Shown here: positions 49,017-52,099 of the stretch, piece by piece
Numbering within the stretch: the first letter of the stretch is position 1
How the letters are laid out: each line of letters opens with the position of its first letter
From: Pseudomonadota bacterium
GTDB lineage: Bacteria; Pseudomonadota; Gammaproteobacteria; Pseudomonadales; Oceanobacteraceae
Assembly (NCBI GenBank): GCA_030145845.1
Contig: JAIXHJ010000001.1
Coordinates: 434,001-498,000 of the forward strand
Direction of reading: 5' to 3'
DNA length: 64,000 nucleotides
The notes under the pieces: generated by a model
Told to the model about the DNA's origin: nothing
The model's input: only the letters and a program-made list of their open reading frames with translations
Database searches by the model: none
Translations under genes and position numbers: made by a program

Positions 49017-49128
<112 letters not shown>

Positions 49129-49204: not shown

Positions 49205-51211
49205 ATGAGTTATCAAGTACTTGCCCGTAAATGGCGACCACGTTTCTTCGATGAAATGGTGGGGCAGGAGCATGTGCTGCGGGCACTCATCAATGCGCTC
49301 AATGAGCAGCGTCTGCATCATGCCTATCTGTTTACCGGCACCCGTGGGGTGGGCAAAACCACCATCGCACGGATTCTGGCCAAATGTCTCAACTGCGAAG
49401 AGGGCATCAGCGCCCGCCCGTGTGGCAAATGCAGTGCCTGCCGTGAAATCTCAGAAGGCCGTTTTGTCGATCTGATTGAAGTCGATGCGGCTTCCCGGAC
49501 CAAGGTGGAAGATACCCGTGAGCTGCTCGATAACGTGCAGTACGCACCGACCCGCGGGCGTTTCAAGGTATACCTCATCGATGAGGTGCACATGCTGTCC
49601 ACCCACAGTTTTAACGCACTGCTGAAAACGCTTGAAGAACCGCCGGAGCATGTGAAGTTCCTGCTGGCGACGACTGATCCACAGAAGTTGCCGGTGACCG
49701 TGCTGTCGCGCTGCCTGCAGTTCAGTCTCAAAAATATGACGCCGGAGCGTATCGTCGGCTATCTGGGCAAAGTACTGGAGGCTGAGCAGATCGGCTATGA
49801 AGAGCCGGCTCTGTGGCAGCTGGGGCGGGCCGCGCAGGGCAGTATGCGTGACGCTCTCAGCCTGACCGATCAGGCCATTGCCTACGGCGAAGGCCTGGTG
49901 GGTGAGGCGCAGGTTAATGCCATGCTCGGTACCATGGACCGTGGCCGCCTGTTCAAACTGGCGGAAGTCATGGCCAGGGCAGATGCCACTGAGGTGATGG
50001 CCGAAGTGGCAGCCATGGCCGAACATGGCCCGGATTACGACGAAGTCCTGCAGGGGTTGCTGGGCATCTGGCACAAAGCGGCACTGGGCCAGATCGTGCC
50101 TGATGCCATTGAAAATTCTGAAGGTGACCGGGATGCGATTCTGCAGCTGGCCATGGCGATGCAACCGGAAGATCTGCAGTTGTATTACCAGATCGCCTTA
50201 AGCGGACGCTCGGATCTGGCGCTGGCTCCGGACCCCCGTCAGGGTTTTGAGATGATTCTGCTGCGCATGCTGGCATTCCGTCCGGCACCGGCTGCGCCGC
50301 TGGATCTGGACCTGGAAAGCGCACTGCAAAAAAAAAAGCCTCTGACATCCGCTGATACTGTCCGTCCGGCCGCGGCCACAGAGGCGGTTGCCGCTGTGCC
50401 AGCGCCGCCGGTTACAGTTGTGGAAACTGACGCGCCGCTGTTGGCCGGGCAGACGACCGCAGCTGAAGCAGTTATTCCTGAAGTCGCCACAGGTGAAACC
50501 GTCACTCCTGAAGATACGTCAGCCGCCTTGCCGCCGCCACTGGCGGATGGGCATTCCCCGCTTAGCGATGAAGCCAGCGGCCCGGAAGCTCCGGAGTCTG
50601 AGCCGGCTGAAGCGGGTGCTGAAATGCCTGACGAGCCGCCATCGACGCAGGATATTCCGCCACTGCGTGCACCTGAGTCCGCGGTGGCGGCCATGCCGGA
50701 TACCCACGCTGACCCCGTCATCGCAGAACCCGTCAGCGCAGAACCTGCTTCTGCAGATCCCGTTGCCGTCGAACCGCTGAGCGCTGAGCCAGTCACTGAA
50801 ACCGGGCCGGCGTCATCCACTGATGAGACGTTGCTACCGCATACCTGGTGGCGCTGGCTGGAACGGCTGAAGCTGGCCGGTCTGCCGATGGCGATTGCGC
50901 GTAACAGTGCCCTGATCCGGGTGGATGGCGATCTGTATGAATTTGACGTTGATCCGGTACAGGGTGCTCTGTTCAATGAGTCGCAGAAGCAGCGAATTCA
51001 GGACGCCATGCGCGAGTGGATTCCGGCGGCAAAAATTGAAATGCTGTTACAGCCAACGCGGGGTGAAACACCCGAGCAGCGGCGTCAGCGGGAAAAAGCC
51101 GAAGCGCATTACGGTGCCAAACAGGCGATTGAAGGAGACCCGCTGGTACAGCGGATTCTCAATGAATTCAGTGGCGTGGTGGTGGATGACACTGTCCGCC
51201 CGGTAACCTGA
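49205..51211 (+). CDS. dnaX: DNA polymerase III subunits tau and (by frameshift) gamma
   Basis: 668 residues. Clamp-loader AAA+ domain: MSYQVLARKWRPRFFDEMVG, Walker A GTRGVGKTT (about 46-54), zinc-binding cysteines in CLNCEEGISARPCGKCSACR, LIDEVHMLS and TTDPQKLPVTVLSRCLQF. After the core come a run of ten A's at 50328-50337, a Pro/Ala/Glu-rich spacer with SAEPASADPVAVEPLSAEP-type repeats, and a C-terminal tau domain (about 540-668). The A-run codes LQKKKP in frame and is a likely frameshift site giving gamma. The ATG is 76 bases after ffs; the frame is open upstream into ffs. Confidence 0.96.
   Translation: MSYQVLARKWRPRFFDEMVGQEHVLRALINALNEQRLHHAYLFTGTRGVGKTTIARILAKCLNCEEGISARPCGKCSACREISEGRFVDLIEVDAASRTKVEDTRELLDNVQYAPTRGRFKVYLIDEVHMLSTHSFNALLKTLEEPPEHVKFLLATTDPQKLPVTVLSRCLQFSLKNMTPERIVGYLGKVLEAEQIGYEEPALWQLGRAAQGSMRDALSLTDQAIAYGEGLVGEAQVNAMLGTMDRGRLFKLAEVMARADATEVMAEVAAMAEHGPDYDEVLQGLLGIWHKAALGQIVPDAIENSEGDRDAILQLAMAMQPEDLQLYYQIALSGRSDLALAPDPRQGFEMILLRMLAFRPAPAAPLDLDLESALQKKKPLTSADTVRPAAATEAVAAVPAPPVTVVETDAPLLAGQTTAAEAVIPEVATGETVTPEDTSAALPPPLADGHSPLSDEASGPEAPESEPAEAGAEMPDEPPSTQDIPPLRAPESAVAAMPDTHADPVIAEPVSAEPASADPVAVEPLSAEPVTETGPASSTDETLLPHTWWRWLERLKLAGLPMAIARNSALIRVDGDLYEFDVDPVQGALFNESQKQRIQDAMREWIPAAKIEMLLQPTRGETPEQRRQREKAEAHYGAKQAIEGDPLVQRILNEFSGVVVDDTVRPVT
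50328..50385 (+). promoter_or_regulatory. dnaX slippery run with downstream stem (frameshift site)
   Basis: Ten consecutive A's (50328-50337, in-frame CAA AAA AAA AAG) are followed immediately by GCCTCTG (50338-50344), which can pair with CAGAGGC (50379-50385), enclosing the palindrome GGCCGCGGCC. A GGAAAG lies 8 bases upstream, a possible Shine-Dalgarno-like stimulator. A -1 shift reaches TGA at 50353 after adding A-S-D-I-R, giving a protein of about 383 residues; a +1 shift stops at 50343. Confidence 0.75.
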
Positions 51212-51250: not shown

Positions 51251-51577
51251 ATGATGAAAGGTGGCATGGGCAACCTGATGAAACAGGCGCAGAAGATGCA
51301 GGAGCAACTGCAGAAAGCGCAGGCAGAGCTGGCCGAAAAAGAAGTCACCGGTGAATCCGGTGCCGGTCTGGTAAAGGTCACCATGAATGGCCGTCACGAC
51401 GTGAAACGCGTTGAGCTGGACGACTCCATTATGGAAGAAGACAAAGAAATGCTGGAAGACCTGCTGGCAGCTGCAGTGAATGACGCCGTGCGCAAAATTG
51501 AAGCACGTAATCAGGACGAAATGGGCAAGCTGACTTCCGGTATGGGTCTGCCGCCGGGTATGAAGCTGCCGTTCTGA
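51251..51577 (+). CDS. ybaB: YbaB/EbfC nucleoid-associated protein
   Basis: 108 residues, a normal length. [20 protein letters not shown] is the helical N-terminus (positions 1-20), followed by [17 protein letters not shown] and the beta sheet. Dimeric DNA-binding protein coded between dnaX and recR, as in most bacteria. AAAGGAG precedes the ATG; a second ATG codon follows at once. Confidence 0.97.
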
Positions 51578-51580
51578 TCT

Positions 51581-52099
51581 ATGGCGCTGCCCGCACCGTA
51601 TCAGCAGCTGGTTCAGGCGTTTGATGCGTTGCCCGGGGTTGGTCCCCGGGCAGCCGCACGTCTGGCGCGCTATGTGATTGATGACCCGCAGGGTGATGCT
51701 CTGGCTGCGGCCATTACCCGTGCGCGGGCAGAGCTGGTACTTTGTCAGCACTGCTATCGTTACGCTCTGACGGATACCTGTGACATCTGTGCTGCGGCGC
51801 ATGGGCAGCAGCCATTGTTTGTGGTTGCCGGCGTTGAGGATTCTGAACGCCTGACCGGGCAGGGCATGAGCAACCAGTTTCTGCTGCACGCGCTGTTGTC
51901 ACCGGTGGCGGGTATCGGACCGGCGCAATTGCATTTGCCGCAGCTGCGTGCCCGGGTTGTTAATGAAGCGATCAGCGATCTGAAACTGGTTTTGCCGGCT
52001 GGTGTGGAAGCAGAGGCAACTGCACAGTTTATTATGGATATGCTGGCTGATGTGGACGTCAGTATCAGCCGTCAGGAGGTTAATGATGGGGCGCCTTAA
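51581..52099 (+). CDS. recR: RecR recombination protein, shortened at the C-terminus
   Basis: 172 residues against about 200 in the family. Present: helix-hairpin-helix LPGVGPRAAARLARYV, a C4 zinc finger (CQHC and CDIC), and most of a Toprim domain (LLSPVAGIGPAQL, VEAEATAQFI). Missing: the C-terminal 25-30 residues including the HGxPxGGxLEYxD Walker B-like segment. The Toprim start reads VVAGVED where E. coli RecR has VVESPAD, so a conserved Glu is lost. The 3' end overlaps rnd by 14 bases. RecR with RecO/RecF loads RecA at gaps; function here may be altered. Confidence 0.88.
   Translation: MALPAPYQQLVQAFDALPGVGPRAAARLARYVIDDPQGDALAAAITRARAELVLCQHCYRYALTDTCDICAAAHGQQPLFVVAGVEDSERLTGQGMSNQFLLHALLSPVAGIGPAQLHLPQLRARVVNEAISDLKLVLPAGVEAEATAQFIMDMLADVDVSISRQEVNDGAP

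Follow-up and report, generated by a model that had tools for sequence, protein, structure and literature searches.

A bacterial dnaX gene can give, besides tau, a shorter product called gamma, by a slip of the ribosome as in E. coli or by a slip of RNA polymerase as described for Thermus. The dnaX gene studied here carries ten consecutive adenines, and it raises the question whether this run makes gamma and, if so, whether RNA polymerase, ribosomes, or both slip on it, a choice that the original prediction had left open. In the window (the whole stretch of 64,000 nucleotides that was analysed), the gene order is ffs-dnaX-ybaB-recR, with the SRP RNA (ffs) at 49026-49122; dnaX, encoding DNA polymerase III tau/gamma, at 49205-51211 on the plus strand (ATG at 49205, stop at 51209-51211); ybaB at 51251-51577; and a recR-like gene at 51581-52099. 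The DnaX protein matches the NCBIfam gamma/tau model NF005942 with 795 bits (cut-off 613), and Pfam recognises in it the delta2/AAA module, the ATPase lid, domain III (match 232-357), and tau domain V. The zero-frame product is tau, 668 aa long, read from a single uninterrupted ORF. Indeed, the zero frame continues past the run to 51211, so that this is not the two-ORF (reversed) layout of some other dnaX genes.

The run, its frames and the stem behind it

The A10 run occupies positions 50328-50337 on the plus strand, 3' of domain III, whose Pfam match ends at residue 357. It falls in codons 375-378, which read CAA AAA AAA AAG as predicted, and it includes, in frame, the heptamer A_AAA_AAG (50332-50338, plus strand), i.e., the slip site of the E. 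coli-type ribosomal mechanism. Both other frames close nearby, which also bears out the prediction: a TGA at 50343-50345 (plus strand), 5 nt behind the run, ends the +1 frame that transcripts with nine or twelve A's would enter, and a TGA at 50353-50355 (plus strand), 15 nt behind the run, ends the -1 frame, reached by transcripts with eleven A's or by a -1 ribosomal shift. In the 4.08-Mb assembly (94.9% complete), this is the only run of at least ten A's on either strand, and runs of exactly nine occur at eight other sites. By a rough estimate from base composition, chance could account for one such run in a genome, but not, judging from the genes compared below, for its retention in relatives. 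Separately, we observed an A9 at codon 266 of a 292-codon open frame (L253, G000:C2:320968), where slippage would alter the end of that frame's product.

The original prediction had also given a role to a stem that touches the run (50338-50385, plus strand). Its arms, GCCTCTG (50338-50344) and CAGAGGC (50379-50385), do pair perfectly over 7 bp, with 34 nt between them. When the fold is ended exactly at 50385, its energy is -17.2 kcal/mol (z -1.37), and 14 of 200 shuffles are as good; with 20 further bases, another hairpin wins and absorbs the 3' arm (z 0.39). Of 100 codon shuffles of this dnaX gene, 20 contain an equally long stem that begins 0-2 nt behind the run; the mean stem length in 26 family genes is 4.5 bp, whereas shuffles give 5.0. 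Because such a stem is common in codon shuffles, is not kept in the family genes compared, and is outcompeted by a neighbouring hairpin, we judge it a chance pairing and reject it as a stimulator. Downstream structure over 72 nt gives z -0.72 in this gene, short of the stem-loop of the E. coli element. The Rfam model of that element (RF00382) matches neither the window (E limit 5) nor any of ten A10 loci (E limit 1), which is a weak test since only two of ten A6 loci were reached, both below the gathering score. A scan for an antisense terminator (the stem and T10 on the minus strand) found none there, with a loop limit of 8 that would miss a loop of 34 nt. Upstream, where a hairpin of the nascent RNA could form, the family gives z 0.0 over 30 nt and -0.55 over 45 nt (sem 0.19, uncorrected), and structure is stronger in the A6/A7 genes described below (z -1.36 and -1.17).

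Retention among relatives and two designs of dnaX

We compared 202 distinct dnaX genes (210 before removal of duplicate sequences). They come from the family (match in 42 of 44 genomes), from the order (match in 282 of 293 genomes, part of them fetched), and from the best 80 of 589 confirmed stretches, whose titles are mostly gammaproteobacterial and, for a few, just proteobacterial. Each gene was classed by its longest A run of at least nine within 450 nt or, failing this, by its first in-frame A6 or A7 of the A_AAA_AAG type. In this way, 45 genes have A9/A10, 56 have A6/A7 reading A_AAA_AAG in frame, and 101 have neither in the stretch searched. Among the matches listed, a Saccharospirillaceae MAG, at 94% identity, and an Oleispira MAG carrying A7 are the nearest named relatives.

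Among the 42 family genes, 28 from six genera carry A9/A10, six from one genus carry A7, and eight from one genus carry A6. Every gene fetched from the six genera has the run (28/28, A9 or A10); thus, of the two elements that the original prediction proposed to follow across relatives, the run is kept and the stem is not. From the end of domain III to the start of the run, the distance is 52-124 nt (52 in 18 of 28), and in 26 genes the run is exactly A10 in frame, followed by G in 25 and by T in one (L027), with A_AAA_AAG kept in 25 of the 26. In the other two genes, the run goes into N's (L005) or is an A9 out of frame (L007). Outside the family, A_AAA_AAG is absent from 14 of 17 A9/A10 genes, and the run occurs in all three codon phases. 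Hence, with the heptamer mostly absent there, the run itself is what recurs. Some of the A9 runs found outside the family in AT-rich genes may be due to chance (G+C is 0.33-0.42 in five of seven in-frame A9 genes).

A few genes show other arrangements. In L007/L033 (genome G006, MAG S5C81), A9 stands in place of A10, which closes the zero frame, and one additional A would be required for tau; the reversed layout may be genuine here, or the assembly may have slipped. Thiolinea disciformis DSM 14473 (L109) has an A9 out of frame just behind position 2809; a stop follows within two codons in the zero frame, and 190 codons lie open in the tau frame, i.e., a two-ORF arrangement. In L202 (genome G317), the zero frame closes at once at an A6 site and the -1 frame is open for 155 codons, which also looks like the two-ORF layout, although L200, from the same genus, has an in-frame A10.

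The stops behind the run are kept beyond chance. We redrew the codons of each gene from its own synonyms (300 draws, window of 24 nt, with L005, L007, L109, L095, and L202 left out) and counted closed frames, the genes in these and the following counts being related and not independent rows. In the family A10 genes, the -1 frame is closed in 26/26 (null 11.2), the +1 frame in 25/26 (null 16.8, max 22), and both in 25/26 (null 7.1, max 14); of their +1 stops, 20 are TGA, four TAG, and two TAA. The A9/A10 genes outside the family give 15/16 for the -1 frame (null 9.5), 14/16 for the +1 frame (null 9.3), and 13/16 for both (null 5.4, max 11). In the A6/A7 genes other than the A7 genus, the -1 frame is closed in 47/48 (null 17.1), the +1 frame is at chance (11/48, null 14.8), and both are closed in 11/48 (null 5, max 11). 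The A7 genus is closed in 6/6 in each test, a value that the null also reaches. A second test, by codon shuffling within 26 nt (L005, L007, L109, L211, L095, and L202 left out), gives for both frames 25/26 in the family A10 genes (null 2.1), 12/15 in the A9/A10 genes outside (null 2.7), 6/6 in the A7 genus (null 1.2, max 5), and 11/48 in the other A6/A7 genes (null 4.4, max 10).

The same genes were compared for the stimulators of ribosomal frameshifting, with those that have N's or less than 200 nt of frame left out (n = 26, 15, 6, and 48). An upstream SD-like duplex of -5 kcal/mol or below is present in 44/48 A6/A7 genes, against 6/26 in the family A10 genes (L012, L013, L020, L021, L022, and L024), 3/15 in the A9/A10 genes outside, and 2/6 in the A7 genus; the gene studied here, with -3.5 kcal/mol, lies above this threshold. 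Structure 4-48 nt downstream has a mean z of -2.02 (sem 0.18) in A6/A7 genes, -0.35 (0.28) in family A10 genes, -0.01 (0.32) in A9/A10 genes outside, and -0.94 (0.21) in the A7 genus. Three single A10 genes (L010, L013, and L017) have a z below -2 over 72 nt downstream. The A9/A10 genes, as a group, are thus without the E. coli-type stimulators. In terms of these sequence features, the E. coli design belongs to the A6/A7 genes as a group and the Thermus design to the A9/A10 genes, and the A7 genus (L028-L032 and L161; it includes the Oleispira MAG, L034) is possibly an intermediate between the two. The original prediction had seen features of both designs in the present gene. The comparison does not support this: with its long run, both frames closed, no SD-like stimulator, and no downstream structure beyond shuffles, the gene sits with the Thermus design.

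Probable polymerase slippage and its rivals

We consider it probable that the A10 run serves for programmed transcriptional slippage, as in the dnaX of Thermus, and the run most likely makes gamma, as its anatomy and conservation suggest. RNA polymerase would gain or lose A's while copying the run, which would generate a mixed mRNA pool. Transcripts with ten A's would give tau (668 aa), as would those with 13 (a predicted 669 aa). Transcripts with nine, eleven, or twelve A's would reach a stop within a few codons and produce gamma, with predicted lengths of 379, 383, and 380 aa, respectively. The C-terminal ends predicted for them are QKKSL (A9), QKKKASDIR (A11), and QKKKSL (A12), and the A9 and A12 ends could not result from a -1 shift of the ribosome. 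The product of about 383 residues proposed earlier is therefore the one that translation gives for an A11 transcript or, equally, for a -1 ribosomal shift. Such a gamma would keep the ATPase, the lid, and domain III, without the C-terminal part of tau, and its level would vary with the frequency of polymerase slips. We infer slippage itself, its rate, and the making and use of gamma; the run, its retention, the two stops, and the missing stimulators of the group are what the sequences show. In a reporter, E. coli RNA polymerase is described as showing no detectable slippage below eight A's (PMC6260861), a minimum which puts A9/A10 in the working range and A7 outside it. The A7 genus closes both frames although its run is below eight A's, and this counts against the polymerase reading, as do the E. 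coli-like signs of the single A10 genes named above.

The closest competitor is that gamma would come mainly from -1 ribosomal frameshifting on A_AAA_AAG, with the long run just adding slipperiness. We hold this to be unlikely. It is true that the in-frame heptamer is conserved in 25/26 family genes with in-frame A10, that all 26 have a -1 stop within 24 nt, that six of them have an SD-like duplex, and that both tRNA-Lys genes found in the source genome read UUU. However, -1 shifting leaves unexplained both the closed +1 frame (25/26, where the draws reach 22 at most) and the length of the run; one family gene (L027) has a T behind its A10; and the A9/A10 group is without the stimulators of the A6/A7 genes, to which one can add, as the weak test that it is, the missing Rfam matches in the window and in ten A10 loci. 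Nevertheless, with the heptamer kept and only tRNA-Lys(UUU) found, ribosomes could shift too. Hence, of the machines named in the original prediction, the polymerase is the one that anatomy and conservation favor, and the retained heptamer leaves room for a ribosomal share beside it.

A closed +1 frame would equally be favored if ribosomes slid on the A run and terminated prematurely on out-of-frame stops, since sliding would likewise favor closing both frames. Sliding followed by such termination is documented in an E. coli translation system (PMC4363877), but the truncated product described there is robust with A11 and little with A9 or A10, and we regard this origin of gamma as very improbable at an A10. 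Just as improbable is a run that is merely a lysine linker or a relic in a gene making tau alone: the 101 of 202 dnaX genes with neither design in the stretch searched do indicate that many relatives can do without making gamma by recoding, but both stops are kept beyond draws that preserve the amino acids, and lysine alone fails to explain the unbroken A's, because each of the eight other conserved Lys columns (matched N-terminal part, 28 family genes) mixes AAA and AAG, with 61% AAA.

Known systems, lysine tRNAs and a possible exchange of designs

The polymerase slippage that we favor has its model in Thermus, where dnaX has an A9 run with stops in both non-zero frames and where transcriptional slippage in T. 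thermophilus was reported by Larsen et al. 2000, as described in PMC5009743 and PMC1088944. From these descriptions, the two genes have in common a single tau ORF, a long in-frame A run, stops in both non-zero frames, and a shorter product that is gamma (predicted here). They differ in the run, A10 here and A9 in Thermus, and in lysine tRNAs, only tRNA-Lys(UUU) being found here against two kinds in the Thermus description. Moreover, the present gene keeps A_AAA_AAG, and a sister genus in its family has the E. coli design. With the E. coli-type -1 frameshifting element (RF00382), it shares the in-frame A_AAA_AAG, the part of the gene, and the class of product; it differs by having no SD-like stimulator, no stem beyond chance, a +1 frame that is closed too, and a run of ten A's instead of six.

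Poly-A runs are known in other dnaX genes as well. In two-ORF dnaX genes with A7-A10, ten A's in nine of them, the run was attributed to polymerase realignment (Antonov et al. 2013, PMC3711429); as these genes are described, tau needs the shift, whereas here tau is the zero-frame product. In Blochmannia vafer and B. floridanus, which have a frameshifted dnaX, transcriptional slippage was proposed at a poly-A tract (PMC3017870). These are gammaproteobacterial dnaX genes with a poly-A tract, as is the present one, but the Blochmannia tract, described from an AT-rich endosymbiont, follows the ribosomal site on its downstream side, and the role proposed for slippage is to restore tau rather than to make gamma. 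The mechanism and the gene (from Thermus), two-ORF dnaX genes with A10, and the Blochmannia proposal are therefore already known. As far as our searches show, what is new is the A10 with a single-ORF tau in this group, the apparent repeated exchange of designs, and the signature of two stops; by title or abstract, we found no literature on A9/A10 dnaX in this group.

The two lysine tRNAs of Thermus have been suggested as going with slippage (PMC5009743). In the source genome, two tRNA-Lys genes were found, both UUU, and three patterns detected no tRNA-Lys(CUU), although a divergent one could be missed; the second and third patterns found tRNA-Lys(CUU) elsewhere and are thus able to detect it. 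The 44 family genomes hold one confirmed tRNA-Lys(CUU), in an A10 genome (G032), and their remaining CUU-directed matches are no commoner than those of a reversed control pattern. The G032 gene lies at 155-229 of L264, on contig C84 (14.9 kb), between tRNA-Val and tRNA-Gly. A stricter CUU pattern matched in three of 293 order genomes, two of the matches being tRNA-Lys(CUU) and one no tRNA, and no A9/A10 dnaX was seen in either of the two genomes with this tRNA. With tRNA-Lys(CUU) mostly not found in the group, the suggestion made for Thermus does not explain its runs, which speaks against a second lysine tRNA as the reason for slippage.

A quick tree built from the N-terminal regions of the 202 DnaX proteins, in which several long branches are unsure and gain is indistinguishable from loss, requires 13 changes in the presence of A9/A10, at least eight of them forced by its starred branches. 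The A6 genus (8 rows, support 99) stands beside a clade of the A10 and A7 genes (34 rows, support 99), the node having a support of 87. In independent pairs, of which only three are supported, too few to give the comparison power, the closed +1 frame goes with the run in 1.5 and the SD-like site against it in 1.9 (means over random pairings). We lean to the view that the order and its gammaproteobacterial neighbours have repeatedly swapped ribosomal frameshifting and RNA polymerase slippage for the making of gamma. This would have happened also within the family, where the A6 genus, with its SD-like site and structure, is sister to the clade with A10 and two closed frames, and the A7 genus, which keeps both stops, would be an intermediate or a reversal; one kind of lysine tRNA would have sufficed for it, so that tRNA supply would not be the driver; and closure of both frames could serve as a comparative test for truncation-type slippage. 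That type was called difficult to predict by comparison in Baranov et al. 2005 (PMC1088944), for which two closed wrong frames would provide a simple signature. The same pair of proteins is apparently made via slips of two machines, with close relatives differing in which one, and this amounts to a natural experiment on the causes that shift a gene from the ribosome to the polymerase. According to a review, gamma matters in E. coli for UV resistance and for mutagenesis by Pol IV.

At the end of the gene cluster, the recR-like gene (51581-52099) is short, with 172 aa and 96 bits against a cut-off of 162.55, and it is the sole recR match in the source genome assembly. In a MAG of the same genus (L033), the ORF at the recR position is likewise divergent by eye, and the Oleispira MAG has an ordinary-looking recR ORF of 200 aa. 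The C-terminal part of recR seems to be degenerate in the source genus.
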